A stretch of DNA of 64,000 nucleotides from assembly GCA_963680875.1 (NCBI GenBank), contig OY804580.1, positions 117,319,104-117,383,103 on the forward strand, in the 5' to 3' direction. The DNA comes from Bathymodiolus brooksi (taxonomy: Eukaryota > Mollusca > Bivalvia > Mytilida > Modiolidae). Every line of letters starts with the position of its first letter. Positions within the stretch are counted from its first letter, which is position 1. The position numbers and the translations under genes are program-made. Shown here in pieces: positions 656 through 64,000 of this stretch. Below the pieces are notes generated by a model that made no database searches, was not told the DNA's origin, and was given only the letters and a program-made list of their open reading frames with translations.

Positions 656-7827
<7,172 letters not shown>

Positions 7828-10204: not shown

Positions 10205-13200
10205 CCAGAGGCTCTCAAGAGCCTGTATCGTTCACCTGGTTATAAAAAAAAACAATTGGCCCTATGTAAAAACTATGTCCTGCAGTGGTAGTCATCTTGG
10301 AATTACGATCAACATAAAAAACACAAAGTTTGTAAAGGACCTTCCAATGATTGATGCATAGTTTAGGTTCAATCAGTGCAATAGCTTCAGAGAAGAAGAT
10401 ATTTCTGTATTTTCCCGATATGGTCCTGTGTTAATACTATGACCTGTGGTGGCAGCCATCTTGGATTTCCGATCGGCATAAAAAACAGAGGACCTTCCAA
10501 TGATCATTCCTGGGCAGTTTGGTTTCAGAGAAGAAGCGTTTTGAAACATTTTTCCCATTGGGTCCAATGTTAAACTAAGTCCTGCCGTGGCCGCCATTTT
10601 GAATTTCATATCAGAACAAAAAAGGTAAAGTTTGTAGAGGACCATTTTGAACATTTTCCCATAGGGTCCAATGTTAATCTATGTCCTGCAGTGGTGGCCA
10701 TCTTGGATATCCGATCGGCATAAAAAACACACACCTTGTAGAGGACCTTCCAATGATCATTCCTGGGCAGTTTGGTTTCAATTATCCAAGTGGTTTCAGA
10801 GAAGAAGCGTTTTGAAACATTTTTCCCATAGGGTCCAATGTTAAACTAAGTCCTGCCGTAGCCGCCATTTTGAATTTCATATCGGAACAAAAAACGTAAA
10901 GTTTGTAGAGGACCATCTAATGAACATTCCTGTACAGTTTGGCTTTAATCATATTTGTAGTTTCTGAGAAGAAGGCATTTGAATATTTCCCCATAGGGTA
11001 CAATGTTAATCTATGTATTGCGGTGGCGGCCATCTTGGATTTCCGATCGGCATAAAAAACCGAAAATTTGTAGAGGACCTTCCAATGATCATTCCTGGGC
11101 AGTTTGGTTTCAACTGTCCAAGTGGTTTCAGAGAAGAAGTGTTTTGAAACATTTTTCCCATAGGGTCCAATGTTAAACTAAGTCCTGCCGTAGCCGCCAT
11201 TTTGAATTTCATATCGGAACAAAAAACCTATAGTTTGTAGAGGGCCATCTAATGAACATTCATGTACAGTTTGGCTTTAATCATATTTGTAGTTTCTGAG
11301 AAGAAGGCATTTGAACATTTTCCCATAGGGTCCAATGTTAATCTATGTCCTGCGGTGGTGGCCATCTTGGATTTCCGATCGGCATAAAAAAACAGAAACT
11401 TTGTAGAGGACCTTCCAATGATCATTCCTGGGCAGTTTGGTTTCAATTGTCCTAGTGGTTTCAGAGAAGAAGCGTTTTGAAACATTTTTCCCATAGGGTC
11501 CAATGTTAAACTAAGTCCTGCCGTAGCCACCATTTTGAATTTCATACCGGAACAAAAAACGAAAATTTGTAGAGGACCATCTAATGAACATTCATGTACA
11601 GTTTGGCTTTAATCATATTTGTAGTTTCTGAGAAGAAGGCATTTGAATATTTTCCCATAGGGTCCAATGTTAATCTATGTATTGTGGTGGCGGCCATCTT
11701 GGATTTCCGATCGACATAAAAAACATAAAATTTGTAGAGGACCTTCCAATGATCATTCCTGGGCAGTTTGGTTTCAACTGTCCTAGTGGTTTCAGAGAAG
11801 AAGCGTTTTGAAACATTTTCCCCATAGGGTCCAATGTTAAACTAAGTCCTGCCGTAGCCGCCATTTTGAATTTCATACCGGAACAAAAAACGTAAATTTT
11901 GTAGAGGACCATCCAATGAACATTCATGTACAGTTTGGCTTTAATCATATTTGTAGTTTCTGAGAAGAAGGCATTTGAATATTTTCCCATAGGGTCCAAT
12001 GTTAATCTATGTCCTGCGGTGGTGGCCATCTTGAATTTTCGATCGGCATAAAAATAACATAAACTTTGTAGAGGACCTTCCAATGACTATTCCTGGGCAG
12101 TTTGGTTTCAATTGTCCAAGTGGTTTCAGAGAAGAAGCGTTTTGAAACATTTTCCCCATAGGGTCCAATGTTAAACTAAGTCCTGCCGTAGCCGCCATTT
12201 TGAATTTCATATCGGAACAAAAAACGTAAATTTGTAGAGGACCATCCAATGAACATTCATGTACAGTTTGGCTTTAATAATATTTGTAGTTTCTGAGAAG
12301 AAGGCATTTGAACATTTTCCCATAGGGTCCAATGTTAATCTATGTATTATGGTGGCGGTCATCTTGGATTTCCGATCGGCATAAAAAACATAAAATTTGT
12401 AGAGAACCTTCCAATGATCATTCCTGGGCAGTTTGGTTTCAACTGTCCAAGTGGTTTCAGAGAAGAAGCGTGTTGAAACATTTTCCCAATAGGGTCCAAT
12501 GTTAAACTAAGTCCTGCCGTAGCCGCCATTTTGAATTTCATACCGGAACAAAAAACGTAAATTTTGGAGAGGACCATCTAATGAACATTCATGTACAGTT
12601 TGGCTTTAATCATATTTGTAGTTTCTGAGAAGAAGGAATTTGAATATTTTCCCATAGGGTCCAATGTTAATCTATGTCCTGCGGTGGCGGCCATCTTGAA
12701 TTTTCGATCGGCATAAAAATAACATAAACTTTGTAGAGGACCTTCCAATGACTATTCCTGGGCAGTTTGGTTTCAATTGTCCAAGTGGTTTCAGAGAAGA
12801 AGCGTTTTGAAACATTTTTCCCATAGGGTCCAATGTTAAACTAAGTCCTGCCGTAGCCGCCATTTTGAATTTCATATCGGAACAAAAAACGTAAATTTGT
12901 AGAGGACCATCCAATGAACATTCATGTACAGTTTGGCTTTAATAATATTTGTAGTTTCTGAGAAGAAGGCATTTGAACATTTTCCCATAGGGTCCAATGT
13001 TAATCTATGTATTGCGGTGGCGGCCATCTTGGATTTCCGATCGACTTAAAAAACATATATTTTGTAGAGGACCTTCCAATGATCATTCCTGGGCAGTTTG
13101 GTTTCAATTGTCCTAGTGGTTTCAGAGAAGAAGCGTTTTGAAACATTTTTCCCATAGGGTCCAATGTTAAACTTAAGTCCTGCTGTAGCCGCCATTTTGA

Positions 13201-14018
13201 ATTTCATACCGGAACAAAAAACATAAAGTTTGTAGAGGACCATCTAATGAACATTCATGTACAGTTTGGCTTTAATAATATTTGTAGTTTCTGAGAAGAA
13301 GGCATTTGAATATTTTCCCATAGGGTACAATGTTAATCTATGTCCTGCGGTGGTGGCCATCTTGGATTTCCGATCGGCATAAAAAACATAAAATTTGTAG
13401 AGAACCTTCCAATGATCATTCCTGGGCAGTTTGGTTTCAACTGTCCAAGTGGTTTCAGAGAAGAAGCGTTTTGAAACATTTTCCCCATAGGGTCCAATGT
13501 TAAACTAAGTCCTGCCGTAGCCGCCATTTTGAATTTCATATCGGAACAAAAAACCTTGAGATTGTAGAAGACCGTCCAATGAACATTCATGTACAGTTTG
13601 GCTTTAATCATATTTGTAGTTTCTGAGAAGAAGGCATTTGAACATTTTCCCATAGGGTCCAATGTTAATCTATGTCCTACGATGGTGGCCATCTTGGATT
13701 TCCGATCGGCATAAAAAACAGAAACTTGGTAAAGGACATTCCAATGATCATTCATTTACAGTTTGGGTTCAGTCAGTTCATTAGTTTCAGAGAAGAAGAT
13801 CTTTGAAATTTCAGCCAATCAGAGAATATTATTGGCCCTGGCAGCCATATTGAATATCCGACTGGAACGAAAAACAGTCATTTTGTAGAGGACCATCCAA
13901 GGAACATTCCTGCTAAGTTTGGTTCCAATCGGCCCAGTGGTTTCAGAGAAGAAGCTTGAAATGTGAAAAGTTTACAGACGACGGACGCCAAGTGATGGCA
14001 ATAGTTCACCTGGACCTG
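10205..14018 (-). mobile_element. Helitron-like element, copy A, with 331-bp satellite core
   Basis: In minus orientation the 3' end reads caggtgaacgatac, then the stem-loop AGGCTCT-tg-AGAGCCT, then CTCTGG followed by T. The 5' side carries the family block tattgccatcacttggcgtc. The same ends occur at 26416 and 40591. A hairpin followed by CTRR|T resembles a Helitron 3' terminus. The element sits inside copy 1 of the CAGGGG element. No helicase/Rep gene is present, so it is non-autonomous if the classification holds. Confidence 0.65.
10440..13960 (-). repeat. ~331-bp dimeric satellite array, about 10 copies
   Basis: The landmark gccattttgaatttcata recurs at about 10.58, 10.86, 11.19, 11.52, 11.85, 12.19, 12.53, 12.86, 13.19 and 13.52 kb, giving a period of 330-336 bp (first step shorter). 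Each unit consists of two related ~165-bp halves, each with a 'cagtttggtttcaa / gtttcagagaagaag / cccatagggtccaatgttaa' block. The repeated minus-strand frames (MAATAGLSLTLDPMGK) are by-products of the repeat, not genes. Confidence 0.95.
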
Positions 14019-36525: not shown

Positions 36526-36530
36526 AGAGT

Positions 36531-37937
36531 ATTGAACACATGGTCTACAGCTGTATCTGTTACCATTATACCTTTATAGTCAAGCCTGGATTAACCTGCA
36601 GGCAAAATAAAGTATTGGAACACATGGTCTACAGCTGTATCTGTTACCATTATACCTTTATAGTCAAGCCTGGATTAACCTGCAGGCAAATAAAGTATTG
36701 AACACATAGTCTACAGCTGTATCTGTTACCATCACACCTTTATAGTCAAGCCTGGATTAACCTGCAGGCAAATAAAGTATTGAACACATGGTCTACAGCT
36801 GTATCTGTTACCATTATACCTTTATAGTCAGGCCTGGATTAACCTGCAGGCAAAATAAAGTATTGGAACACATGGTCTACAGCTGTATCTGTTACCATTA
36901 TACCTTTATAGTCAGGCCTGGATTAACCTACAGGCAAAATAAAGTATTGAACACATGGTCTACAGCTGTATCTGTTACCATTATACCTTTATAGTCAGGC
37001 CTGGATTAACCTACAGGCAAAATAAAGTATTGAACACATGGTCTACAGCTGTATCTGTTACCATTATACCTTTATAGTCAGGCCTGGATTAACCTGCAGG
37101 CAAAATCAAGTATTGGAACACATGGTCTACAGCTGTATCTGTTACCATTATACCTTTATAGTCAAGCCTGGATTAACCTGCAGGCAAATAAAGTATTGAA
37201 CACATAGTCTACAGCTGTATCTGTTACCATCACACCTTTATAGTCAAGCCTGGATTAACCTGCAGGCAAATAAAGTATTGAACACATAGTCTACAGCTGT
37301 ATCTGTTACCATTATACCTTTATAGTCAGGCCTGGATTAACCTGCAGGCAAAATAAAGTATTGAACACATGGTCTACAGCTGTATCTGTTGCCATCATAC
37401 CTTTATAGTCAGGCCTGGATTAACCTACAGGCAAAATAAAGTATTGAACACATGGTCTACAGCTGTATCTGTTACCATCACACCTTTATAGTCAGGCCTG
37501 GATTAACCTACAGGCAAAATAAAGTATTGAACACATGGTCTACAGCTGTATCTGTTACCATCACACCTTTATAGTCAGGCCTGGATTAACCTACAGGCAA
37601 AATAAAGTATTGAACACATGGTCTACAGCTGTATCTGTTGCCATCATACCTTTATAGTCAGGCCTGGATTAACCTACAGGCAAAATAAAGTATTGAACAC
37701 ATGGTCTACAGCTGTATCTGTTACCATCACACCTTTATAGTCAGGCCTGGATTAACCTACAGGCAAAATAAAGTATTGAACACATGGTCTACAGCTGTAT
37801 CTGTTACCATCACACCTTTATAGTCAGGCCTGGATTAACCTACAGGCAAAATAAAGTATTGAACACATGGTCTACAGCTGTATCTGTTGCCATCATACCT
37901 TTATAGTCAGGCCTGGATTAACCTGCAGGCAAAATAA
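36531..37937 (+). repeat. ~83-bp tandem array, about 17 copies
   Basis: The unit runs gtattgaacacatggtctac, agctgtatctgttaccatta, tacctttatagtcaggcctg, gattaacctgcaggcaaaat. Variant sites (aag/agg, acctgc/acctac, attatac/atcacac, ttacc/ttgcc) recur in blocks, showing local segmental duplication. Confidence 0.97.
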
Positions 37938-41165: not shown

Positions 41166-41178
41166 GAAGAAATCCCAG

Positions 41179-44100
41179 CAGTCTGTGACAAAAACCACTA
41201 GCCATTAGCCCCAGTCTAGTCCCAGCAGTCTGTGACAAAAACCACTGGCCATTAGCCCCAGTCTAGTCCCAGCAGTCTGTGACAAAAACCACTAGCCATT
41301 AACCCCAGTCTAGTCCCAGCAGTCTGTGACAAAAACCATTAGCCCCAGTCTAGTCCCAGCAGTCTGTGACAAAAACCATTAGCCCCAGTCTAGTCCCAGC
41401 AGTCTGTGCCAAAAACCACTAGCCATTAGCCCCAGTCTAGTCCCAGCAGTCTGTGACAAAAACCACTAGCCATTAGCCCCAGTCTAGTCCCAGCAGTCTG
41501 TGACAAAAACCATTAGCCCCAGTCTAGTTCCAGCAGTCTGTGACAAAAACCACTAGCCATTAGCCCCAGTCTAGTCCCAGCAGTCTGTGACAAAAACCAC
41601 TAGCCATTAGCCCCAGTCTAGTCCCAGCAGTCTGTGACAAAAACCACTAGCCATTAGCCCCAGTCTAGTCCCAGCAGTCTGTGACAAAAACCACTAGCCA
41701 TTAGCCCCAGTCTAGTCCCAGCAGTCTGTGACAAAAACCACTAGCCATTAGCCCCAGTCTAGTCCCAGCAGTCTGTGACAAAAACCACTAGCCATTAGCC
41801 CCAGTCTAGTCCCAGCAGTCTGTGCCAAAAACCACTAGCCATTAGCCCCAGTCTAGTCCCAGCAGTCTGTGACAAAAACCACTAGCCCCAGTCTAGTCCC
41901 AGCAGTCTGTGCCAAAAACCACTAGCCTTTAGCCCCAGTCTAGTCCCAGCAGTCTGTGACAAAAACCACTAGCCATTAGCCCCAGTCTAGTCCCAGCAGT
42001 CTTTGCCAAAAACCACTAGCCATTAGCCCCAGTCTAGTCACAGCAGTCTGTGCCAAAAACCACTAGCCATTAGCCCCAGTCTAGTCCCAGCAGTCTGTGA
42101 CAAAAACCACTAGCCATTAGCCCCAGTCTAGTCCCAGCAGTCTGTGCCAAAAACCACTAGCCATTAGCCCCAGTCTAGTCCCAGCAGTCTGTGCCAAAAA
42201 CCACTAGTCATTAGCCCCAGTCTAGTCCCAGCAGTCTGTGACAAAAACCACTAGCCCCAGTCTAGTCCCAGCAGTCTGTGCCAAAACCCACTAGCCATTA
42301 GCCCCAGTCTAGTCCCAGCAGTCTGTGACAAAAACCACTAGCCATTAGCCCCAGTCTAGTCCCAGCAGTCTGTGACAAAAACCACTAGCCATTAGCCCCA
42401 GTCTAGTCCCAGCAGTCTGTGCCAAAAACCACTAGCCATTAGCCCCAGTCTAGTCCCAGCAGTATGTGACAAAAACCACTAGCCATTAGCCCCAGTCTAG
42501 TCCCAGCAGTCTGTGACAAAAACCACTAGCCATTAGCCCCAGTCTAGTCCCAGCAGTCTGTGACAAAAACCACTAGCCATTAGCCCCAGTCTAGTCCCAG
42601 CAGTCTGTGCCAAAAACCACTAGCCATTAGCCCCAGTCTAGTCCCAGCAGTCTGTGACAAAAACCACTAGCCATTAGCCCCAGTCTAGTCCCAGCAGTCT
42701 GTGCCAAAAACCACTAGCCATTAGCCCCAGTCTAGTCCCAGCAGTCTGTGACAAAAACCACTAGCCCCAGTCTAGTCCCAGCAGTCTGTGCCAAAAACCA
42801 CTAGCCTTTAGCCCCAGTCTAGTCCCAGCAGTCTGTGACAAAAACCACTAGCCATTAGCCCCAGTCTAGTCCCAGCAGTCTTTGCCAAAAACCACTAGCC
42901 ATTAGCCCCAGTCTAGTCACAGCAGTCTGTGCCAAAAACCACTAGCCATTAGCCCCAGTCTAGTCCCAGCAGTCTGTGACAAAAACCACTAGCCATTAGC
43001 CCCAGTCTAGTCCCAGCAGTCTGTGCCAAAAACCACTAGCCATTAGCCCCAGTCTAGTCCCAGCAGTCTGTGCCAAAAACCACTAGTCATTAGCCCCAGT
43101 CTAGTCCCAGCAGTCTGTGACAAAAACCACTAGCCCCAGTCTAGTCCCAGCAGTCTGTGCCAAAACCCACTAGCCATTAGCCCCAGTCTAGTCCCAGCAG
43201 TCTGTGACAAAAACCACTAGCCATTAGCCCCAGTCTAGTCCCAGCAGTCTGTGACAAAAACCACTAGCCATTAGCCCCAGTCTAGTCCCAGCAGTCTGTG
43301 CCAAAAACCACTAGCCATTAGCCCCAGTCTAGTCCCAGCAGTCTGTGACAAAAACCACTAGCCATTAGCCCCAGTCTAGTCCCAGCAGTCTGTGACAAAA
43401 ACCACTAGCCATTAGCCCCAGTCTAGTCCCAGCAGTCTGTGACAAAAACCATTAGCCCCAGTCTAGTCCCAGCAGTCTGTGACAAAAACCACTAGCCATT
43501 AGCCCCAGTCTAGTCCCAGCAGTCTGTGACAAAAACCACTAGCCATTAGCCCCAGTCTAGTCCCAGCAGTCTGTGCCAAAAACCACTAGCCATTAGCCCC
43601 AGTCTAGTCCCAGCAGTCTGTGACAAAAACCACTAGCCATTAGCCCCAGTCTAGTCCCAGCAGTCTGTGCCAAAAACCACTAGCCATTAGCCCCAGTCTA
43701 GTCCCAGCAGTCTGTGACAAAAACCACTAGCCCCAGTCTAGTCCCAGCAGTCTGTGCCAAAAACCACTAGCCTTTAGCCCCAGTCTAGTCCCAGCAGTCT
43801 GTGACAAAAACCACTAGCCATTAGCCCCAGTCTAGTCCCAGCAGTCTTTGCCAAAAACCACTAGCCATTAGCCCCAGTCTAGTCACAGCAGTCTGTGCCA
43901 AAAACCACTAGCCATTAGCCCCAGTCTAGTCCCAGCAGTCTGTGACAAAAACCACTAGCCATTAGCCCCAGTCTAGTCCCAGCAGTCTGTGCCAAAAACC
44001 ACTAGCCATTAGCCCCAGTCTAGTCCCAGCAGTCTGTGCCAAAAACCACTAGTCATTAGCCCCAGTCTAGTCCCAGCAGTCTGTGACAAAAACCACTAGC

Positions 44101-44527
44101 CCCAGTCTAGTCCCAGCAGTCTGTGCCAAAACCCACTAGCCATTAGCCCCAGTCTAGTCCCAGCAGTCTGTGACAAAAACCACTAGCCATTAGCCCCAGT
44201 CTAGTCCCAGCAGTCTGTGACAAAAACCACTAGCCATTAGCCCCAGTCTAGTCCCAGCAGTCTGTGCCAAAAACCACTAGCCATTAGCCCCAGTCTAGTC
44301 CCAGCAGTCTGTGACAAAAACCACTAGCCATTAGCCCCAGTCTAGTCCCAGCAGTCTGTGACAAAAACCACTAGCCATTAGCCCCAGTCTAGTCCCAGCA
44401 GTCTGTGACAAAAACCATTAGCCCCAGTCTAGTCCCAGCAGTCTGTGACAAAAACCACTAGCCATTAGCCCCAGTCTAGTCCCAGCAGTCTGTGACAAAA
44501 ACCACTAGCCATTAGCCCCAGTCTAGT
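41179..44527 (+). repeat. 47-bp tandem array, more than 70 copies, with 40-bp variants
   Basis: The unit is agtctgtgacaaaaaccact, agccattagccccagtctag, tcccagc. Shorter units lack the 'actagcc' or 'attagcc' duplication. Rare variants (agtctttgcc, agtcacagcag, aaaaccc, tagtcatt) recur in the same order near 42.0, 42.9 and 43.85 kb, so blocks of about 0.88-0.97 kb were duplicated. Confidence 0.98.
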
Positions 44528-44643
44528 CCAAATTGGTTAGAGCTAGCTATAGGAAAAAATTGGATAACATTTGCTTATTCAAATATAATTTTTTTTTTAA
44601 ATACCTTTCTGACTAGTTGTTCAAATTTTGTTTTACACAGACT
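41179..44643. mobile_element. Expanded copy of the AGTCTGTG MITE
   Basis: Starts agtctgtgacaaaaaccact and ends gactagttgttcaaatt...ttacacagact at 44643, matching both ends of the 152-bp element at 6871-7022. Nearly all of its extra length is the internal 47-bp array. Confidence 0.6.
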
Positions 44644-45280: not shown

Positions 45281-45425
45281 ACTTATCTCATGGTATCTGA
45301 TTTTGTGTTATCACATTGTCGCTTTATAAGTTTCTATCAGCTTCACCATGATGAGCACAACTAAATTCCCAAAAACAAACTACACATACAAAGTGTTTTT
45401 GAGAGCTTGAAGCCTTCACTGGATT

Positions 45426-45970
45426 TTTGCCACATCATTTGTATAGACCATAGATTTTTGCTACATCATTTGTATAGACCATAGATTTTTGCTACATCAT
45501 TTGTATAGATCATAGATTTTTGCTACATCATTTGTATAGACCATAGATTTTTGCTACATCATTTGAATAGACCATAGATTTTTGCTACATCATTTGTATA
45601 GACCATAGATTTTTGCTACATCATTTGTATAGACCATAGATTTTTGCTACATCATTTGTATAGATCATAGATTTTTGCTACATCATTTGTATAGACCATA
45701 GATTTTTGCTACATCATTTGTATAGATCATAGATTTTTGCTACATCATTTGTATAGGTCATAGTTTTTTGCTACACCATTTGTATAGACCATAGTTTTTT
45801 GCTACATCATTTGTATAGACCATAGATTTTTGCTACATCATTTGTATAGATCATAGATTTTTGCTACATCATTTGTATAGATCATAGTTTTTTGCTACAT
45901 CATTTGTATAGACCATAGTTTTTTGCTACATCATTTGTATAGACCATAGTTTTTTGCTACATCATTTGGA
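45426..45970 (+). repeat. 31-bp tandem array, about 17 copies
   Basis: The unit is acatcatttgtatagaccat followed by agatttttgct, with c/t and a/t variants. Confidence 0.98.
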
Positions 45971-48239: not shown

Positions 48240-49265
48240 AAATAGGGATCGGACACAAGTTTTTCCAGCTTATGAAGTCTTCTCACGAGTACAATGATTT
48301 ACAATATGGAATAGCATGCGCAATGAAATGATATAATATGTATATAATAGCATAGAGTTAAATATACAAAGAATGATTATATACAAAAACATAGGTTTAG
48401 ACAATATACGAAAAAAAAGAAAAGAGAATAAATACTTTTGGAGATGTGTGTTGGTTCTTTAGATCATTTAGACAATTGTAAATCTTTTGGAGTTTTTAAT
48501 ATATTTAAAAGCATGTTTAAAAATAATTATATTTCCTTGATATGTTAGGAGATCACTTCCTTTTGTCAGTAGATTTACATCAATATTAATGTTAGAAGGT
48601 AGCCAGTTAAGACTATTAAATAATATTTCCCTATTATCTGTATATTTGTCACAATCAAAAAAGAAATGGTGAGAATTTTCACATGGTGCACCACAGTTAC
48701 AGGAAGCATTTGATAAAATTTTAACTTTACATAAATCGTAATTCAAGAAGGATGCATTGCAGCGAAGCTGTGTTAGAATTATATTTAGTTTTCTAGGACC
48801 ATAAGAATAGTGTCTCGGAATTGGCATTGAGATTGAACTGGATTGCTTTTTTAAATTTAGATAATGTGTCAAGATTACGCACTGAAAGATTAAGGTTATT
48901 CCATTCCCTTACTGTAGCTGAGACGAAAGAATCTCTAGTTAAAGATAGTCTACAGAATGGAACAATAATATTGTTGCCATTTCGAAGGGGATAAATAGTC
49001 GTACTTTGGATTGTTGGGGGAATAAGATCGAGTAAATAAGAGGGTGTGCTACCGTTTGGGATATTATATAATAATTGGAGCTTTCTCCTAGTTCTTCTTT
49101 CTTCCAATCTCTCCCAGCCAGTTTCTCTATATAGATATTCTGTGTTGGTAAAGATTGGAAGTCCGGTGATAATTCTAGCTGCCTCCAACTGTAGCCTCTC
49201 CAATTTGCACGAATTAGAGACACCACAGTTGTCCCAGACCTCACATGCATACTCTAAATATTGGT
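48240..49265 (-). mobile_element. 5'-truncated non-LTR retrotransposon (C-terminal region)
   Basis: Reading from 49260 downward, the minus strand gives the end of a LINE polyprotein: ERLQLEAARIITGLPIFTNT, WERLEERRTRRKLQLLYNIP, RDSFVSATVREWNNL. Then, after a frame change near 48850, it gives YSYGPRKLNIILTQLRCNAS and the cysteine/histidine motif CNCGAPCENSHHFFFDCDKY. This is the region downstream of the reverse-transcriptase core in jockey/CR1/L2-type elements of molluscs. The two frames do not join, so it is inactive. A 3' UTR appears to run to about 48240. 5' truncation is typical of target-primed reverse transcription. Confidence 0.85.
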
Positions 49266-49685
49266 CGAATGTAAATTAAGTATAAATTGTTGTTCTCCTC
49301 CTGTATGTTGTAAGCATTATTATTATACTTTACTATAGAAACCAAGCAAGAAATAATTATGATATTTTAAAGTTTTATTCCATGGAACAAGAAATAACTC
49401 ATTATTCCCTCGACAAACTGCACGTAGGTCAAATAACTGTGAGGGAATCTGCATGTAGCACAAAATAACTGTTTGAAATTGGCGCACTTTTGCACGTTGA
49501 ACCAATAACTAGTTATTTCCCTAATATTAGTTCAGTATAATAATACAGTTATGTCCTTCATGAGAAGTTAATATCCATAATTAATAAAACCTTCGGACCT
49601 CGGGGAAAATGACCCTTTCTCAATGTAATAATTATGGATACTAACTTCTCATGAAGGCCATAATTGTATATTATTATTTTACCAC
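49266..49685. other. Non-coding with a local inverted repeat
   Basis: The segment tgtccttcatgagaagttaa (about 49553) recurs inverted as taacttctcatgaaggccat (about 49641), with a shared ttattaattatggat(a) core, making a ~35-bp imperfect stem. Confidence 0.5.
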
Positions 49686-50100
49686 AGTAGTCCCTCTCTT
49701 ATAAGGCCACCCCTTCTGTAGTGAAAAAGTGGCCTTAATAACGGATTTCCTCTCTTATAAGGCCACCCCTTCTGTAGTGAAAAAGTGGCCTTAATAACGG
49801 ATTTCCTCTCTTATAAGGCCACCCCTTCTGTAGTGAAAAAGTGGCCTTAATAACAGGGATTTCCTCTCTTATAAGGCCACCCCTTCTGTAGTGAAAAAGT
49901 GGCCTTAATAACAAGGATTTCCTCTCTTATAAGGCCACCCCTTCTGTAGTGAAAAAGTGGCCTTAATAACAGGGATTTCCTCTCTTATAAGGCCACCCCT
50001 TCTGTAGTGAAAAGTGGCCTTAATAACAGGGATTTCCTCTCTTATAAGGCCACCCCTTCTGTAGTGAAAAAGTGGCCTTAATAACAGGGGTTTCCTCTCT
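49686..50100 (+). repeat. ~60-bp tandem array, about 7 copies
   Basis: The unit is tcctctcttataaggccacc, ccttctgtagtgaaaaagtg, gccttaataacagggattt. It is an internal amplification of the repeat whose single-copy forms are at 34545 and 46404. A SINE-tail remnant follows at 50190-50240. Confidence 0.97.
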
Positions 50101-50266
50101 TGAGAGAGGTAATTTATAAGTAGTATTTTACTATCTCAGTTCATCTGAAATGTGGCCTGTTGAGAGGGTGGCCTTATAAGTAGTGGGAGACTGCATTTCT
50201 CCGGTTTCTTTCACCAATAAAACTTACCACAAGGACAACAAAATGTAAGTAGAGAGATTTTAGGGT

Positions 50267-51170: not shown

Positions 51171-51475
51171 GAATGTGACATGACATAACCTGGTATGTAA
51201 ATAATATATAATGTGTTATAAATAATAAATTTATATTTTTAAATTTGTTATCATTCAACTGAATCTTTACAATTATAGTTGAAATATAAAACTTTGAAAT
51301 AATGAAAAGAAAGGAAGAAAACAAGTATCATTGCACCCAGCTGTCCCTTTTTTAAACCGAACAAAATAAATTTTCGATCGGAAACCTGACCGAGTAACCG
51401 GTTATAAGGTTTTAATCGATTTGACATCCCTAGTATTATTATATCTGTATATTATAAATCTTTTTATTTTTCCAG

Positions 51476-51527: not shown

Positions 51528-52339
51528 ATGGGAATGAAGATGAAGAAATCCACATGTTATTTTGTCATATGTTTTGTTGGTACTATTTTAGTTTGTTATA
51601 ATTTTTTACAATGTGACAATAGACCATCAGCTATTATGGTGCCATCAGAAAAAGACAAACTTATTTACACAGAACAAGGAAAAGCCATTAAGTATGGACG
51701 GGAAAGCTCCCTGATTTTTATTGGAGGTATGCCAAGAAGTGGAACAACGCTGATGAGAGCTATGATCGATGCTCACCCTGATGTTAGATGTGGTGAAGAG
51801 ACACGTATCGTACCACGTATTCTTGGTATGAGAGCTCAGTGGTACAAATCAGAGGTGGAGAAGAAACGATTGTTAGAGGCAGGCATTAATGATTATGTGA
51901 TAGATTCTGCTATTTCTGCCTTTGTTTTAGAGGTCATAGCTAAACATGGGGAAGCAGCACAAAGATTGTGTAATAAAGATCCATTTACTTTGAAATCCAG
52001 TGTGTACTTAAAGAAATTGTTTCCTAATGCAAAGTTTTTATTTATAATCCGTGATGGACGAGCTACCGTTCATTCTATTATCACACGTAAAGTGACTATC
52101 ACAGGATTTGATCTGACCAGTTATAAACACTGTTTAATGAAATGGAATCACGCCATGGAAACAATGTATGCTCAATGTTTACATGTTGGTGTAAGGCACT
52201 GTCTACCTGTCTACTATGAACAATTGACCCTTCACCCTGAATTATGGATGAAAAGGATTTTAGAATTTTTAGAATTGCCATGGAATGATACCGTCCTTCA
52301 TCATGAGGATTATATAGGAAAAGAAATATCCCTCTCAAA
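51528..52339 (+). CDS. TPST: Tyrosylprotein sulfotransferase, first coding exon
   Basis: TPSTs are Golgi type II membrane enzymes that transfer sulfate from PAPS to tyrosines of secreted proteins. The exon encodes 270 residues plus two bases of a protein of about 370. It shows a short cytosolic tail and a membrane anchor at residues 10-27. The PAPS 5'-phosphosulfate loop is PRSGTT at 69-74, and the GEETR motif (89-93) contains the likely catalytic Glu. The 3'-phosphate-binding segment is RDGRATVHS at 175-183. [11 protein letters not shown] and VHYEQL-like VYYEQL are also conserved. It closely follows human TPST1/2, including the SLSK junction with the next exon. The ATG at 51528 is the first in frame; 5' exons may exist. 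The donor at 52340 is the first unit of the 60-bp array. The remaining exons lie beyond 64000. Paralogue (1 or 2) not resolved. Confidence 0.95.
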
Positions 52340-55300
52340 GTAAGTACATTCACTAGCTTAGAGAATAAACTACATCATCTTGCCTTCTTCTCTTTCAAAG
52401 TAAGTACATACACTAGCTTAGAGAATAAACTACATCATCTTGCCTTCTTCTCTTTCAAAGTAAGTACATACACTAGCTTAGAGAATAAACTACATCATCT
52501 TGTCTTCTTCTCTCTCAAAGTAAGTACATACACTAGCTTAGAGAATAAACTACATCATCTTGCCTTCTTCTCTTTCAAAGTAAGTACATACACTAGCTTA
52601 GAGAATAAACTACATCATCTTGCCTTCTTCTCTCTCAAAGTAAGTACATACACTAGCTTAGAGAATAAACTACATCATCTTGCCTTCTTCTCTTTCAAAG
52701 TAAGTACATACACTAGCTTAGAGAATAAACTACATCATCTTGCCTTCTTCTCTTTCAAAGTAAGTACATTCACTAGCTTAGAGAATAAACTACATCATCT
52801 TGCCTTCTTCTCTCTCAAAGTAAGTACATACACTAGCTTAGAGAATAAACTACATCATCTTGTCTTCTTCTCTTTCAAAGTAAGTACATTCACTAGCTTA
52901 GAGAATAAACTATATCATCTTGTCTTCTTCTCTTTCAAAGTAAGTACATTCACTAGCTTAGAGAATAAACTACATCATCTTGCCTTCTTCTCTTTCAAAG
53001 TAAGTACATTCACTAGCTTAGAGAATAAACTACATCATCTTGTCTTCTTCTCTTTCAAAGTAAGTACATTCACTAGCTTAGAGAATAAACTACATCATCT
53101 TGCCTTCTTCTCTTTCAAAGTAAGTACATACACTAGCTTAGAGAATAAACTACATCATCTTGTCTTCTTCTCTTTCAAAGTAAGTACATACACTAGCTTA
53201 GAGAATAAACTACATCATCTTGCCTTCTTCTCTCTCAAAGTAAGTACATACACTAGCTTAGAGAATAAACTACATCATCTTGCCTTCTTCTCTTTCAAAG
53301 TAAGTACATACACTAGCTTAGAGAATAAACTACATCATCTTGCCTTCTTCTCTTTCAAAGTAAGTACATTCACTAGCTTAGAGAATAAACTACATCATCT
53401 TGCCTTCTTCTCTTTCAAAGTAAGTACATTCACTAGCTTAGAGAATAAAAAGTAAGTACATTCACTAGCTTAGAGAATAAACTACATCATCTTGCCTTCT
53501 TCTCTTTCAAAGTAAGTACATACACTAGCTTAGAGAATAAACTACATCATCTTGTCTTCCTCTCTTTCAAAGTAAGTACATACACTAGCTTAGAGAATAA
53601 ACTACATCATCTTGCCTTCTTCTCTTTCAAAGTAAGTACATACACTAGCTTAGAGAATAAACTACATCATCTTGTCTTCTTCTCTTTCAAAGTAAGTACA
53701 TTCACTAGCTTAGAGAATAAACTACATCATCTTGCCTTCTTCTCTTTCAAAGTAAGTACATTCACTAGCTTAGAGAATAAACTACATCATCTTGCCTTCT
53801 TCTCTTTCAAAGTAAGTACATACACTAGCTTAGAGAATAAACTACATCATCTTGCCTTCTTCTCTTTCAAAGTAAGTACATACACTAGCTTAGAGAATAA
53901 ACTACATCATCTTGCCTTCTTCTCTTTCAAAGTAAGTACATACACTAGCTTAGAGAATAAACTACATCATCTTGCCTTCTTCTCTTTCAAAGTAAGTACA
54001 TACACTAGCTTAGAGAATAAACTACATCATCTTGCCTTCTTCTCTTTCAAAGTAAGTACATACACTAGCTTAGAGAATAAACTACATCATCTTGCCTTCT
54101 TCTCTTTCAAAGTAAGTACATACACTAGCTTAGAGAATAAACTACATCATCTTGCCTTCTTCTCTTTCAAAGTAAGTACATACACTAGCTTAGAGAATAA
54201 ACTACATCATCTTGTCTTCTTCTCTTTCAAAGTAAGTACATACACTAGCTTAGAGAATAAACTACATCATCTTGCCTTCTTCTCTTTCAAAGTAAGTACA
54301 TTCACTAGCTTAGAGAATAAACTACATCATCTTGTCTTCTTCTCTTTCAAAGTAAGTACATTCACTAGCTTAGAGAATAAACTACATCATCTTGCCTTCT
54401 TCTCTTTCAAAGTAAGTACATACACTAGCTTAGAGAATAAACTACATCATCTTGCCTTCTTCTCTTTCAAAGTAAGTACATTCACTAGCTTAGAGAATAA
54501 ACTACATCATCTTGTCTTCTTCTCTTTCAAAGTAAGTACATACACTAGCTTAGAGAATAAACTACATCATCTTGCCTTCTTCTCTTTCAAAGTAAGTACA
54601 TTCACTAGCTTAGAGAATAAACTACATCATCTTGCCTTCTTCTCTTTCAAAGTAAGTACATACACTAGCTTAGAGAATAAACTACATCATCTTGTCTTCT
54701 TCTCTTTCAAAGTAAGTACATACACTAGCTTAGAGAATAAACTACATCATCTTGCCTTCTTCTCTTTCAAAGTAAGTACATTCACTAGCTTAGAGAATAA
54801 ACTACATCATCTTGCCTTCTTCTCTTTCAAAGTAAGTACATACACTAGCTTAGAGAATAAACTACATCATCTTGCCTTCTTCTCTTTCAAAGTAAGTACA
54901 TACACTAGCTTAGAGAATAAACTACATCATCTTGCCTTCTTCTCTTTCAAAGTAAGTACATTCACTAGCTTAGAGAATAAACTACATCATCTTGCCTTCT
55001 TCTCTTTCAAAGTAAGTACATACACTAGCTTAGAGAATAAACTACATCATCTTGCCTTCTTCTCTTTCAAAGTAAGTACATACACTAGCTTAGAGAATAA
55101 ACTACATCATCTTGCCTTCTTCTCTTTCAAAGTAAGTACATACACTAGCTTAGAGAATAAACTACATCATCTTGCCTTCTTCTCTTTCAAAGTAAGTACA
55201 TTCACTAGCTTAGAGAATAAACTACATCATCTTGCCTTCTTCTCTTTCAAAGTAAGTACATACACTAGATTAGAGAATAAACTACATCATCTTGCCTTCT

Positions 55301-58300
55301 TCTCTTTCAAAGTAAGTACATACACTAGCTTAGAGAATAAACTACATCATCTTGCCTTCTTCTCTTTCAAAGTAAGTACATACACTAGCTTAGAGAATAA
55401 ACTACATCATCTTGCCTTCTTCTCTTTCAAAGTAAGTACATTCACTAGCTTAGAGAATAAACTACATCATCTTGCCTTCTTCTCTTTCAAAGTAAGTACA
55501 TACACTAGATTAGAGAATAAACTACATCATCTTGCCTTCTTCTCTTTCAAAGTAAGTACATACACTAGCTTAGAGAATAAACTACATCATCTTGCCTTCT
55601 TCTCTTTCAAAGTAAGTACATACACTAGCTTAGAGAATAAACTACATCATCTTGCCTTCTTCTCTTTCAAAGTAAGTACATACACTAGCTTAGAGAATAA
55701 ACTACATCATCTTGCCTTCTTCTCTTTCAAAGTAAGTACATTCACTAGCTTAGAGAATAAACTACATCATCTTGCCTTCTTCTCTTTCAAAGTAAGTACA
55801 TTCACTAGCTTAGAGAATAAAAAGTAAGTACATACACTAGCTTAGAGAATAAACTACATCATCTTGCCTTCTTCTCTTTCAAAGTAAGTACATACACTAG
55901 CTTAGAGAATAAACTACATCATCTTGTCTTCCTCTCTTTCAAAGTAAGTACATACACTAGCTTAGAGAATAAACTACATCATCTTGCCTTCTTCTCTTTC
56001 AAAGTAAGTACATACACTAGCTTAGAGAATAAACTACATCATCTTGCCTTCTTCTCTTTCAAAGTAAGTACATTCACTAGCTTAGAGAATAAACTACATC
56101 ATCTTGCCTTCTTCTCTTTCAAAGTAAGTACATACACTAGCTTAGAGAATAAACTACATCATCTTGCCTTCTTCTCTTTCAAAGTAAGTACATACACTAG
56201 CTTAGAGAATAAACTACATCATCTTGCCTTCTTCTCTTTCAAAGTAAGTACATACACTAGCTTAGAGAATAAACTACATCATCTTGTCTTCTTCTCTTTC
56301 AAAGTAAGTACATTCACTAGCTTAGAGAATAAACTACATCATCTTGCCTTCTTCTCTTTCAAAGTAAGTACATTCACTAGCTTAGAGAATAAACTACATC
56401 ATCTTGCCTTCTTCTCTTTCAAAGTAAGTACATACACTAGCTTAGAGAATAAACTACATCATCTTGCCTTCTTCTCTTTCAAAGTAAGTACATACACTAG
56501 CTTAGAGAATAAACTACATCATCTTGCCTTCTTCTCTTTCAAAGTAAGTACATACACTAGCTTAGAGAATAAACTACATCATCTTGCCTTCTTCTCTTTC
56601 AAAGTAAGTACATTACACTAGCTTAGAGAATAAACTACATCATCTTGCCTTCTTCTCTTTCAAAGTAAGTACATACACTAGCTTAGAGAATAAACTACAT
56701 CATCTTGCCTTCTTCTCTTTCAAAGTAAGTACATACACTAGCTTAGAGAATAAACTACATCATCTTGCCTTCTTCTCTTTCAAAGTAAGTACATACACTA
56801 GCTTAGAGAATAAACTACATCATCTTGTCTTCTTCTCTTTCAAAGTAAGTACATACACTAGCTTAGAGAATAAACTACATCATCTTGCCTTCTTCTCTTT
56901 CAAAGTAAGTACATTCACTAGCTTAGAGAATAAACTACATCATCTTGTCTTCTTCTCTTTCAAAGTAAGTACATACACTAGCTTAGAGAATAAACTACAT
57001 CATCTTGCCTTCTTCTCTTTCAAAGTAAGTACATACACTAGCTTAGAGAATAAACTACATCATCTTGCCTTCTTCTCTTTCAAAGTAAGTACATACACTA
57101 GCTTAGAGAATAAACTACATCATCTTGCCTTCTTCTCTTTCAAAGTAAGTACATACACTAGCTTAGAGAATAAACTACATCATCTTGCCTTCTTCTCTTT
57201 CAAAGTAAGTACATTCACTAGCTTAGAGAATAAACTACATCATCTTGCCTTCTTCTCTTTCAAAGTAAGTACATACACTAGCTTAGAGAATAAACTACAT
57301 CATCTTGCCTTCTTCTCTTTCAAAGTAAGTACATTCACTAGCTTAGAGAATAAACTACATCATCTTGCCTTCTTCTCTTTCAAAGTAAGTACATACACTA
57401 GCTTAGAGAATAAACTACATCATCTTGCCTTCTTCTCTTTCAAAGTAAGTACATACACTAGCTTAGAGAATAAACTACATCATCTTGTCTTCTTCTCTTT
57501 CAAAGTAAGTACATACACTAGCTTAGAGAATAAACTACATCATCTTGCCTTCTTCTCTTTCAAAGTAAGTACATTCACTAGCTTAGAGAATAAACTACAT
57601 CATCTTGCCTTCTTCTCTTTCAAAGTAAGTACATACACTAGCTTAGAGAATAAACTACATCATCTTGCCTTCTTCTCTTTCAAAGTAAGTACATACACTA
57701 GCTTAGAGAATAAACTACATCATCTTGCCTTCTTCTCTTTCAAAGTAAGTACATTCACTAGCTTAGAGAATAAACTACATCATCTTGCCTTCTTCTCTTT
57801 CAAAGTAAGTACATACACTAGCTTAGAGAATAAACTACATCATCTTGCCTTCTTCTCTTTCAAAGTAAGTACATACACTAGCTTAGAGAATAAACTACAT
57901 CATCTTGCCTTCTTCTCTTTCAAAGTAAGTACATACACTAGCTTAGAGAATAAACTACATCATCTTGCCTTCTTCTCTTTCAAAGTAAGTACATTCACTA
58001 GCTTAGAGAATAAACTACATCATCTTGCCTTCTTCTCTTTCAAAGTAAGTACATACACTAGCTTAGAGAATAAACTACATCATCTTGCCTTCTTCTCTTT
58101 CAAAGTAAGTACATACACTAGCTTAGAGAATAAACTACATCATCTTGTCTTCTTCTCTTTCAAAGTAAGTACATTCACTAGCTTAGAGAATAAACTACAT
58201 CATCTTGCCTTCTTCTCTTTCAAAGTAAGTACATACACTAGCTTAGAGAATAAACTACATCATCTTGCCTTCTTCTCTTTCAAAGTAAGTACATACACTA

Positions 58301-61300
58301 GCTTAGAGAATAAACTACATCATCTTGCCTTCTTCTCTTTCAAAGTAAGTACATACACTAGCTTAGAGAATAAACTACATCATCTTGCCTTCTTCTCTTT
58401 CAAAGTAAGTACATTCACTAGCTTAGAGAATAAAAAGTAAGTACATTCACTAGCTTAGAGAATAAACTACATCATCTTGCCTTCTTCTCTTTCAAAGTAA
58501 GTACATACACTAGCTTAGAGAATAAACTACATCATCTTGCCTTCTTCTCTTTCAAAGTAAGTACATACACTAGCTTAGAGAATAAACTACATCATCTTGC
58601 CTTCTTCTCTTTCAAAGTAAGTACATACACTAGCTTAGAGAATAAACTACATCATCTTGCCTTCTTCTCTTTCAAAGTAAGTACATACACTAGCTTAGAG
58701 AATAAACTACATCATCTTGTCTTCTTCTCTTTCAAAGTAAGTACATTCACTAGCTTAGAGAATAAACTACATCATCTTGCCTTCTTCTCTTTCAAAGTAA
58801 GTACATTCACTAGCTTAGAGAATAAACTACATCATCTTGCCTTCTTCTCTTTCAAAGTAAGTACATACACTAGCTTAGAGAATAAACTACATCATCTTGC
58901 CTTCTTCTCTTTCAAAGTAAGTACATACACTAGCTTAGAGAATAAACTACATCATCTTGCCTTCTTCTCTTTCAAAGTAAGTACATACACTAGCTTAGAG
59001 AATAAACTACATCATCTTGCCTTCTTCTCTTTCAAAGTAAGTACATACACTAGCTTAGAGAATAAACTACATCATCTTGCCTTCTTCTCTTTCAAAGTAA
59101 GTACATACACTAGCTTAGAGAATAAACTACATCATCTTGCCTTCTTCTCTTTCAAAGTAAGTACATACACTAGCTTAGAGAATAAACTACATCATCTTGC
59201 CTTCTTCTCTTTCAAAGTAAGTACATACACTAGCTTAGAGAATAAACTACATCATCTTGCCTTCTTCTCTTTCAAAGTAAGTACATACACTAGCTTAGAG
59301 AATAAACTACATCATCTTGCCTTCTTCTCTTTCAAAGTAAGTACATTCACTAGCTTAGAGAATAAACTACATCATCTTGCCTTCTTCTCTTTCAAAGTAA
59401 GTACATACACTAGCTTAGAGAATAAACTACATCATCTTGCCTTCTTCTCTTTCAAAGTAAGTACATACACTAGCTTAGAGAATAAACTACATCATCTTGC
59501 CTTCTTCTCTTTCAAAGTAAGTACATACACTAGCTTAGAGAATAAACTACATCATCTTGCCTTCTTCTCTTTCAAAGTAAGTACATACACTAGCTTAGAG
59601 AATAAACTACATCATCTTGCCTTCTTCTCTTTCAAAGTAAGTACATTCACTAGCTTAGAGAATAAACTACATCATCTTGCCTTCTTCTCTTTCAAAGTAA
59701 GTACATACACTAGCTTAGAGAATAAACTACATCATCTTGCCTTCTTCTCTTTCAAAGTAAGTACATTCACTAGCTTAGAGAATAAACTACATCATCTTGC
59801 CTTCTTCTCTTTCAAAGTAAGTACATACACTAGCTTAGAGAATAAACTACATCATCTTGCCTTCTTCTCTTTCAAAGTAAGTACATACACTAGCTTAGAG
59901 AATAAACTACATCATCTTGTCTTCTTCTCTTTCAAAGTAAGTACATACACTAGCTTAGAGAATAAACTACATCATCTTGCCTTCTTCTCTTTCAAAGTAA
60001 GTACATTCACTAGCTTAGAGAATAAACTACATCATCTTGCCTTCTTCTCTTTCAAAGTAAGTACATACACTAGCTTAGAGAATAAACTACATCATCTTGC
60101 CTTCTTCTCTTTCAAAGTAAGTACATACACTAGCTTAGAGAATAAACTACATCATCTTGCCTTCTTCTCTTTCAAAGTAAGTACATTCACTAGCTTAGAG
60201 AATAAACTACATCATCTTGCCTTCTTCTCTTTCAAAGTAAGTACATACACTAGCTTAGAGAATAAACTACATCATCTTGCCTTCTTCTCTTTCAAAGTAA
60301 GTACATACACTAGCTTAGAGAATAAACTACATCATCTTGCCTTCTTCTCTTTCAAAGTAAGTACATACACTAGCTTAGAGAATAAACTACATCATCTTGC
60401 CTTCTTCTCTTTCAAAGTAAGTACATTCACTAGCTTAGAGAATAAACTACATCATCTTGCCTTCTTCTCTTTCAAAGTAAGTACATACACTAGCTTAGAG
60501 AATAAACTACATCATCTTGCCTTCTTCTCTTTCAAAGTAAGTACATACACTAGCTTAGAGAATAAACTACATCATCTTGCCTTCTTCTCTTTCAAAGTAA
60601 GTACATACACTAGCTTAGAGAATAAACTACATCATCTTGCCTTCTTCTCTTTCAAAGTAAGTCCTTCACTAGCTTAGAGAATAAACTACATCATCTTGCC
60701 TTCTTCTCTTTCAAAGTAAGTACATACACTAGCTTAGAGAATAAACTACATCATCTTGCCTTCTTCTCTTTCAAAGTAAGTACATACACTAGCTTAGAGA
60801 ATAAACTACATCATCTTGCCTTCTTCTCTTTCAAAGTAAGTACATACACTAGCTTAGAGAATAAACTACATCATCTTGCCTTCTTCTCTTTCAAAGTAAG
60901 TACATACACTAGCTTAGAGAATAAACTACATCATCTTGCCTTCTTCTCTTTCAAAGTAAGTACATTCACTAGCTTAGAGAATAAACTACATCATCTTGCC
61001 TTCTTCTCTTTCAAAGTAAGTACATTCACTAGCTTAGAGAATAAAAGTAAGTACATTCACTAGCTTAGAGAATAAACTACATCATCTTGCCTTCTTCTCT
61101 TTCAAAGTAAGTACATACACTAGCTTAGAGAATAAACTACATCATCTTGTCTTCCTCTCTTTCAAAGTAAGTACATACACTAGCTTAGAGAATAAACTAC
61201 ATCATCTTGCCTTCTTCTCTTTCAAAGTAAGTACATACACTAGCTTAGAGAATAAACTACATCATCTTGCCTTCTTCTCTTTCAAAGTAAGTACATACAC

Positions 61301-64000
61301 TAGCTTAGAGAATAAACTACATCATCTTGCCTTCTTCTCTTTCAAAGTAAGTACATTCACTAGCTTAGAGAATAAACTACATCATCTTGCCTTCTTCTCT
61401 TTCAAAGTAAGTACATTCACTAGCTTAGAGAATAAACTACATCATCTTGCCTTCTTCTCTTTCAAAGTAAGTACATACACTAGCTTAGAGAATAAACTAC
61501 ATCATCTTGCCTTCTTCTCTTTCAAAGTAAGTACATACACTAGCTTAGAGAATAAACTACATCATCTTGCCTTCTTCTCTTTCAAAGTAAGTACATACAC
61601 TAGCATTAGAGAATAAACTACATCATCTTGCCTTCTTCTCTTTCAAAGTAAGTACATACACTAGCTTAGAGAATAAACTACATCATCTTGCCTTCTTCTC
61701 TTTCAAAGTAAGTACATACACTAGCTTAGAGAATAAACTACATCATCTTGCCTTCTTCTCTTTCAAAGTAAGTACATACACTAGCTTAGAGAATAAACTA
61801 CATCATCTTGCCTTCTTCTCTTTCAAAGTAAGTACATACACTAGCTTAGAGAATAAACTACATCATCTTGTCTTCTTCTCTTTCAAAGTAAGTACATACA
61901 CTAGCTTAGAGAATAAACTACATCATCTTGCCTTCTTCTCTTTCAAAGTAAGTACATTCACTAGCTTAGAGAATAAACTACATCATCTTGCCTTTCTTCT
62001 CTTTCAAAGTAAGTACATTCACTAGCTTAGAGAATAAACTACATCATCTTGCCTTCTTCTCTTTCAAAGTAAGTACATACACTAGCTTAGAGAATAAACT
62101 ACATCATCTTGCCTTCTTCTCTTTCAAAGTAAGTACATTCACTAGCTTAGAGAATAAACTACATCATCTTGTCTTCTTCTCTTTCAAAGTAAGTACATAC
62201 ACTAGCTTAGAGAATAAACTACATCATCTTGCCTTCTTCTCTTTCAAAGTAAGTACATTCACTAGCTTAGAGAATAAACTACATCATCTTGCCTTCTTCT
62301 CTTTCAAAGTAAGTACATACACTAGCTTAGAGAATAAACTACATCATCTTGCCTTCTTCTCTTTCAAAGTAAGTACATTCACTAGCTTAGAGAATAAACT
62401 ACATCATCTTGCCTTCTTCTCTTTCAAAGTAAGTACATACACTAGCTTAGAGAATAAACTACATCATCTTGCCTTCTTCTCTTTCAAAGTAAGTACATAC
62501 ACTAGCTTAGAGAATAAACTACATCATCTTGTCTTCTTCTCTTTCAAAGTAAGTACATACACTAGCTTAGAGAATAAACTACATCATCTTGCCTTCTTCT
62601 CTTTCAAAGTAAGTACATTCACTAGCTTAGAGAATAAACTACATCATCTTGCCTTCTTCTCTTTCAAAGTAAGTACATACACTAGCTTAGAGAATAAACT
62701 ACATCATCTTGCCTTCTTCTCTTTCAAAGTAAGTACATACACTAGCTTAGAGAATAAACTACATCATCTTGCCTTCTTCTCTTTCAAAGTAAGTACATTC
62801 ACTAGCTTAGAGAATAAACTACATCATCTTGCCTTCTTCTCTTTCAAAGTAAGTACATACACTAGCTTAGAGAATAAACTACATCATCTTGCCTTCTTCT
62901 CTTTCAAAGTAAGTACATACACTAGCTTAGAGAATAAACTACATCATCTTGCCTTCTTCTCTTTCAAAGTAAGTACATACACTAGCTTAGAGAATAAACT
63001 ACATCATCTTGCCTTCTTCTCTTTCAAAGTAAGTACATTCACTAGCTTAGAGAATAAACTACATCATCTTGCCTTCTTCTCTTTCAAAGTAAGTACATAC
63101 ACTAGATTAGAGAATAAACTACATCATCTTGCCTTCTTCTCTTTCAAAGTAAGTACATACACTAGCTTAGAGAATAAACTACATCATCTTGCCTTCTTCT
63201 CTTTCAAAGTAAGTACATACACTAGCTTAGAGAATAAACTACATCATCTTGCCTTCTTCTCTTTCAAAGTAAGTACATTCACTAGCTTAGAGAATAAACT
63301 ACATCATCTTGCCTTCTTCTCTTTCAAAGTAAGTACATACACTAGATTAGAGAATAAACTACATCATCTTGCCTTCTTCTCTTTCAAAGTAAGTACATAC
63401 ACTAGCTTAGAGAATAAACTACATCATCTTGCCTTCTTCTCTTTCAAAGTAAGTACATACACTAGCTTAGAGAATAAACTACATCATCTTGTCTTCTTCT
63501 CTCACAAAGTAAGTACATTCACTAGCTTAGAGAATAAACTACATCATCTTGCCTTCTTCTCTTTCAAAGTAAGTACATACACTAGCTTAGAGAATAAACT
63601 ACATCATCTTGCCTTCTTCTCTTTCAAAGTAAGTACATACACTAGCTTAGAGAATAAACTACATCATCTTGCCTTCTTCTCTTTCAAAGTAAGTACATTC
63701 ACTAGCTAAGAGAATAAACTACATCATCTTGCCTTCTTCTCTTTCAAAGTAAGTACATACACTAGCTTAGAGAATAAACTACATCATCTTGTCTTCTTCT
63801 CTTTCAAAGTAAGTACATTCACTAGCTTAGAGAATAAACTACATCATCTTGCCTTCTTCTCTTCAAAGTAAGTACATACACTAGCTTAGAATAAACTACA
63901 TCATCTTGCCTTCTTCTCTTTCAAAGTAAGTACATTCACTAGCTTAGAGAATAAACTACATCATCTTGTCTTCTTCTCTTTCAAAGTAAGTACATACACT
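52326..64000 (+). repeat. 60-bp tandem array built from the TPST splice donor, about 194 units, open at the right edge
   Basis: The unit is caaagtaagtacatacacta, gcttagagaataaactacat, catcttgccttcttctcttt. The first unit is the exon-intron boundary itself, and each later unit repeats AAA|GTAAGTAC preceded by a pyrimidine tract. Units differ at a few sites (cattcac/catacac, ttgcc/ttgtc, ctctctc/ctctttc). Because 60 is divisible by 3, one frame stays open over long runs. Four truncated units (~30 bp, reading gagaataaaaagtaagtac or gagaataaaagtaagtac) occur at about 53450, 55822, 58434 and 61044. A stretch near 60661 and one near 63863 carry small deletions. Confidence 0.99.
52340..52348 (+). 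promoter_or_regulatory. TPST 5' splice site
   Basis: CTCAAA|GTAAGTAC: the intron positions +1 to +6 match the U1 snRNA consensus perfectly. The reading frame stops (TAA) just beyond it, so splicing is required to continue the protein. Confidence 0.85.

Follow-up and report, generated by a model that had tools for sequence, protein, structure and literature searches.

A tandem array of at least 212 splice donors behind a TPST coding exon in the mussel Bathymodiolus brooksi

Results

TPST gene and its coding exons

The window (the whole stretch of 64,000 nucleotides that was analysed, C6:117319104-117383103) lies in an assembly of 2,002,413,471 bases in 136 contigs. Near its end the window contains a coding exon of a TPST gene, immediately followed by a tandem array of a 60-bp unit that carries a splice donor (Table 1). 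The product of this exon contains the sulfotransferase domain PF13469, is 87% identical to TPST of Mytilus coruscus, and matches residues 36-266 of human TPST2 with an E-value of 2.1e-102. As the acceptor-like sequence ATTTTTCCAG/ATGAATC (here and below, a slash marks the exon-intron boundary) is found at 51475/51476, ahead of the start codon, the exon is probably the first coding exon, and not exon 1 of the gene as an earlier note on this DNA had called it.

The end of the exon was compared with 120 listed homologues, mostly without a name in the case of the 48 whose sequence ends exactly at the corresponding S[KR]. Such endings would result from genomic open reading frames in which a stop codon follows immediately after the donor. 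Another 57 continue past S[KR] as spliced-like sequence, and 15 do otherwise. Judged from these sequences, the exon end is real, old and conserved in position among relatives, which bears out the claim that the array lies directly behind a genuine coding exon.

The next TPST exon lies 2 kb beyond the end of the array and begins at extended coordinate 67133, after TTTTTCAG (junction CAG/GACAGAG). When joined, the two exons read SLSK-TEKSSDQ, as in orthologues. Splicing to this exon was modelled for donors 1, 2, 3 and 6: donor 1 yields an orthologous full-length product of 376 aa, the length of P0003, while donors 2, 3 and 6 each yield only 271 aa ending in SLSK, at the TAA of the first unit, as had been predicted earlier for the use of a downstream donor. 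The part lost with donors 2, 3 and 6 includes the SSDQ stretch, which we take to be part of the cofactor site. The possibility that TPST is a pseudogene or decayed copy was considered and rejected, given the intact open reading frame, the presence of only two TPST matches in the 2.0-Gb assembly (one for each coding exon), and the even relative-rate counts of the coding exon against two relatives (12:12 and 10:10).

Table 1. Positions of the TPST features (window coordinates) and of boundary arrays elsewhere in the assembly
Feature	Position	Strand	Description
Probable 3' splice site upstream of TPST coding exon	51466..51475	+	ATTTTTCCAG; putative, from reading the sequence
TPST coding exon	51528..52339	+	ATG to ...ISLSK; ends in phase 2 (TCA AA/)
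Exonic bases common to the CTCTC variant of the unit	52332..52339	+	CTCTCAAA; TCAAA with the common unit
60-bp boundary array	52335..64000, continuing past a 200-N gap to ~65108	+	197 donor units within the window, then 15 beyond the gap
First donor	52340..52345	+	GTAAGT; of the modelled donors 1, 2, 3 and 6, gives full-length TPST (376 aa)
Truncated 32-bp unit	53417..53448	+	further 32-bp units at 55789 and 58402, and one of 31 bp at 61013
TAF2 gene (L011, L013-L017)	C1:50954000-51012000	-	human TAF2 matches
TAF2 donor arrays			x49 (66 bp), x32 (50 bp), x28 (102 bp); core intact in 49/49, 23/32, 28/28
TAF2 acceptor arrays			x34 (56 bp), x5 (65 bp), x8 (52 bp); core intact in 34/34, 5/5, 8/8
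Third boundary array (L012)	C1:41735500-41738500, 1451-1637		62 bp x 3; donor AAA/GTAAGTACC
CCT duplication (L026)			donor CAG/GTAAGG; four degenerate copies
CCT duplication (L042)			donor AAG/GTATGTC; three copies; only AAG of the exon in the unit
CCT duplication (L055)			acceptor TTTATAG/GGATATG; two copies

Structure of the 60-bp array

On the forward strand of the window, AAAGTAAGT occurs 197 times and AAAGTAAGTAC 196 times, every occurrence being inside the array; neither occurs on the reverse strand of the window or in the window outside the array. The donor in the array units is AAA/GTAAGT. The claim that every unit carries the same donor holds for 196 of the 197 donors in the window, which are identical over 11 bases, and fails for the remaining one, which reads AAAGTAAGTCC. 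Full 60-mers make up 186 units of the window array, and six units have length changes of one or two bases. A gap of 200 N (64001-64200) follows, and reading of the next 60 kb revealed the 15 further units. The total of 212 donors, counted with the donor motif itself, is a lower bound because the gap interrupts the array, whose length across it is not assembled; the earlier estimate of nearly 200 copies (about 194 or more) is thus confirmed and extended. When the units were instead located with a tolerant 30-base anchor, AGTAAGT was found in 206 of 206, indicating that the splice signals are retained.

The assembled TPST intron measures 14,793 bases, and the array, at ~12,574 bases, accounts for 86% of its non-N part. 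At higher-order lags of 85, 44 and 41 units, units match at frequencies of 0.51, 0.50 and 0.44, against 0.36 expected, which amounts to partial order. A coding role of the array was also considered, but a protein search with two stretches of its open frame gave no match at an E-value of 0.001. A second array (29 bp x 11.9) lies downstream of the 60-bp array. By eye, two CTTCCCTCTCAAGGTATAC-like copies were seen around a 1.3-kb stretch, at ~65432-65500 and 66770-66835 in extended coordinates; they resemble the TPST exon end with its donor and are perhaps older, decayed copies of the boundary.

The repeat had been described as starting exactly at the boundary. It does lie at the TPST exon end, but the unit reaches into the exon, with which it shares 5 bases, or 8 in the case of the CTCTC variant, and it includes the donor; the unit therefore spans the exon-intron boundary. 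Units ending in CTCTCTC are nos. 3, 5, 8, 15 and 211 of 211, that is, near both edges of the array, as expected if this were the ancestral, exon-derived state and the interior had been homogenised. With up to 3 mismatches allowed, the 60-bp unit has 202 matches in the whole assembly, all of them within the TPST array, and none on the opposite strand.

Boundary arrays in TAF2 and other genes

In the assembly, AAAGTAAGTAC occurs at 1691 places; the first 100 of these, all on contig C1, were listed. Clusters of at least 3 occurrences at a spacing below 300 bp among these 100 identified two further loci, the gene for the general transcription factor TAF2 and a third locus, while two occurrences separated by 215 bp and four at intervals of ~8.5 kb were left out. 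Since they were picked as clusters of the motif, the two loci are a biased sample.

Within the 58 kb of the TAF2 stretch, seven exons matching human TAF2 were recognised (weakest E-value 0.022), and no counterpart of human residues 899-923 was located there. With exon ends read from AG and GT in the sequence, 6 of 14 TAF2 boundaries are amplified, between 5 and 49 times. The 102-bp array (27.7 copies) comprises the last part of a coding exon together with its donor; this exon matches human TAF2 residues 855-898 (E-value 3.1e-11) and PF25577 (E-value 1e-15). One exon is amplified on both sides. In the intron that separates the exons for human residues 752-788 and 789-812, the donor is present 32 times at the 5' end and the acceptor 34 times at the 3' end. 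The TAF2 units hold coding sequence of their own exon, in longer pieces than the TPST unit does. Another TAF2 intron contains a 33-bp array of ~628 copies, 20.7 kb in length. The third array adjoins an acidic open exon at its end; the start of this exon resembles an acceptor.

A second sample, of CCT/chaperonin genes, was chosen without regard to repeats. From 50 matches, 40 were fetched with their flanks, giving 80 sides; two bacterial groEL sequences, two long uninterrupted hits (C4 and C2:36443732), two matches inside a frame of 764 aa, three located at C12:41.7 Mb and a single weak match at C8:21634272 were left out. A side was defined as the end of an HMM match plus 30-60 bases, first and last exon sides included, and each was compared with its own flanks. 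Of the 18 rows of self-similarity obtained, three were counted as spanning a splice site (Table 1) and the rest were taken as intronic or chance, including the weak junction-crossing L027, L035, L036 and L054 and the ambiguous L049. Small boundary duplications, found at 3 of 80 sides by a procedure that misses boundaries far from match ends, are therefore not rare, and the TPST and TAF2 arrays look like extreme outgrowths of them. Contigs C78 (2.66 Mb) and C125 (1.02 Mb) carry an identical GroEL of gammaproteobacterial type (L060, L061), which is at most 77% identical to the 80 relatives listed for it; it points either to a bacterial associate of the animal or to contamination inside the assembly.

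Tandem repeats in the surrounding sequence

In the 144 kb surrounding TPST, tandem arrays occupy 26% of the sequence; in the TAF2 stretch they occupy 66%. Of 150 random positions in the window, 51 fell into tandem arrays, and in the TAF2 region the figure was 103 of 150; by the same test, 1 of 3 TPST and 6 of 14 TAF2 boundaries did so. A preference of arrays for boundaries is thus not supported in the TAF2 region, and boundaries do not emerge as preferred seeds, because random positions are also often in arrays. Boundary-spanning arrays may simply be those that a gene can bear, since the exon-proximal copy stays in place.

Other minisatellites in the window, which is very rich in arrays, are found at 10646-13798 (332 bp x 9.5), 36528-37937 (83 bp x 17), 41173-44529 (47 bp x 73), 45422-45968 (31 bp x 17.6) and 49693-50101 (58 bp x 7). 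On the reverse strand at 48468-49275, open frames resembling the remains of a reverse transcriptase were noticed by eye.

Discussion

Origin of the TPST array

The combination of a unit that spans the exon-intron boundary with a homogenised interior and deviant edge units is that of the minisatellites called 'mirages' in lancelet genes. We consider the TPST array to be a very long mirage, that is, a minisatellite seeded at the boundary and expanded neutrally, with the exon-proximal donor chosen in splicing (probability roughly 0.8). The duplication mechanism, the choice at splicing and the neutrality are what we infer from this pattern. A 60-bp segment consisting of the last 5-8 bases of the TPST exon and ~52 bases of the intron would have been duplicated in tandem; because the segment began inside the exon, each copy would hold an exon end and a donor. 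Unequal exchange and conversion could then have expanded and homogenised the array to at least 212 copies, leaving the exon-like CTCTC state in the edge units. The extra copies would sit within the intron and be removed with it whenever the exon-proximal donor is used, the other donors being tolerated decoys. The first donor is the one most likely to be picked, as it is transcribed before the others and is the one attached to the exon (exon definition), and a neutral array with the exon-proximal site chosen is the most likely state of affairs. Since the exonic share is only 5-8 bases, it is also conceivable that an independent repeat was joined to the exon end by microhomology, and this may have been the origin of the array.

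We hypothesized alternatively that the array sets the dosage of TPST, some transcripts taking downstream donors and becoming unproductive, such that array length would determine enzyme output. The truncated 271-aa product of donors 2, 3 and 6 and the presence of AGTAAGT in all units located by the tolerant anchor are in line with this, as is the case of human IFI6, where, according to the summary in PMC4526556, two downstream copies of the repeat act as donors. However, the donor is not significantly spared within the array: none of the 9 core positions is variable, compared with 10 of the 51 other positions (P = 0.17), so that purifying selection on the TPST donor is not detectable by this comparison, and in one TAF2 donor array the core is changed more often rather than less (23 of 32 intact). 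We regard a dosage function as improbable.

The array might also have been inflated or misplaced in the assembly, one of the outcomes that the earlier note had named as capable of overturning its reading. The 200-N gap does break the array at the window end, leaving its exact size unassembled, and five of the six units whose length is changed by 1-2 bases are located past 60.6 kb, close to the end of the contig. Against this, the contigs flanking the gap both run into the array, which has the same unit on either side, and the parts of the gene follow in the correct order; a cluster of other sequences (P0001, of 271 aa and differing at one residue) likewise stops at SLSK; and the similar TAF2 arrays are free of gaps, with 0 N in 58 kb. 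The scaffold gap points to an array whose length could not be bridged, more than to one that was invented, and an artefact appears somewhat less probable even than a dosage function.

A further proposal is that the array serves as a platform for U1 binding that protects a long transcript from early polyadenylation, or that it titrates U1. Its sense strand does offer U1 no fewer than 212 complementary sites in tandem, and GTAAGT is absent from the other strand of the window's array. However, the array donor is moderate by U1 pairing, with a duplex energy of -7.0 kcal/mol compared to -14.2 kcal/mol for the consensus, and its description as strong was overstated, although only 71 of 2993 upstream GTs pair with U1 as well or better. 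Most of the donor is moreover predicted to be base-paired within a local hairpin whose stem is weak (-3.3 kcal/mol), although 8.5% of 200 shuffled tails reach the same value; sequestration of the donor in this hairpin was thus not significant and was rejected as a feature of the array. The amplification of acceptor boundaries would also be left unexplained by a U1 role, which we consider very unlikely.

Introner elements are sequences that carry splice sites and multiply as dispersed insertions. That such an element, or another dispersed repeat, was inserted at the donor and later expanded can virtually be dismissed: the region is repeat-rich, but related copies of the unit at unrelated loci, by which introner elements are recognised, were not found in the assembly at up to 3 mismatches, the TPST unit shares bases with its exon, and the TAF2 units contain coding sequence of their own exons.

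Splice-site choice among near-identical sites

The earlier reading of the array is partly supported; missing from it were the similar arrays at other genes, the lancelet mirages and human IFI6. Taking the loci together, we tentatively suggest, with somewhat less than even confidence, that exon-intron boundaries have recurrently been blown up into tens to hundreds of near-identical donors or acceptors in this mussel lineage, even in a gene for a general transcription factor, TAF2, and that the spliceosome has to select, with high fidelity, the site nearest the exon. The rule for this choice would not lie in the local splice-site sequence, because the decoys share that sequence. If true, the animal would provide a natural experiment on how one splice site is chosen among equals, in which array length is the dose.

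Choice among identical splice sites has mainly been studied with built constructs of a few sites. The mussel supplies natural arrays of tens to hundreds of near-identical donors and acceptors beside real exons, and at TPST the exon-proximal site is the one of the modelled donors (1, 2, 3 and 6) that gives a working product. Such arrays offer a natural test of whether exon definition and the order of synthesis suffice for the choice, and of how often decoys win.

Comparison with known systems

In the parts of the lancelet reports used here (PMC3087553, PMC3902484), mirages are described in Adh3, the globins BflGb6 and BflGb9, TnC and PGBD5 as minisatellite-like duplications spanning an exon-intron boundary on its 5' or 3' side, with many copies keeping their splice signals and with units that are homogenised inside the array and distinct at its edges; a triplication of 108 bp is among the Adh3, TnC and PGBD5 cases. 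Mirages are reported there to leave splicing intact. For a globin mirage, the sections available in PMC3087553 give 3 and 6 units in two haplotypes, RT-PCR results suggesting regular splicing, and the proposal that the repeats are a source of new introns. As far as these descriptions go, the mussel TPST array resembles the lancelet mirages in that the unit crosses the boundary, splice signals are kept and edge units deviate. It differs from the globin mirage in scale, with at least 212 donors at one boundary, and in its bivalve host; the TAF2 intron with 32 donors facing 34 acceptors is a further difference.

In human IFI6 (6-16, G1P3), a minisatellite provides several donors, and two downstream units are used, as PMC4526556 summarises from Turri et al. 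1995. TPST likewise has a tandem repeat at an exon end whose units are putative donors; going by this summary, use of downstream units in IFI6 leads to isoforms, whereas in TPST it would truncate the protein. Internal tandem repeats at human exon-intron boundaries change splicing patterns, and introns have been gained by tandem duplication, according to the portion of PMC2812944 drawn on here. In contrast to such intron gain, TPST has no new intron; an older, shared intron has been lengthened.

Among the listed open-licence papers on minisatellites with splice sites, mussels, molluscs or bivalves, we found no bivalve case of a boundary minisatellite, which does not imply absence from print. 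The present arrays indicate that boundary minisatellites are not confined to lancelets. The TPST array is of a kind already described, and what is new is its scale and setting, at least 212 donors at a single exon boundary in a bivalve.
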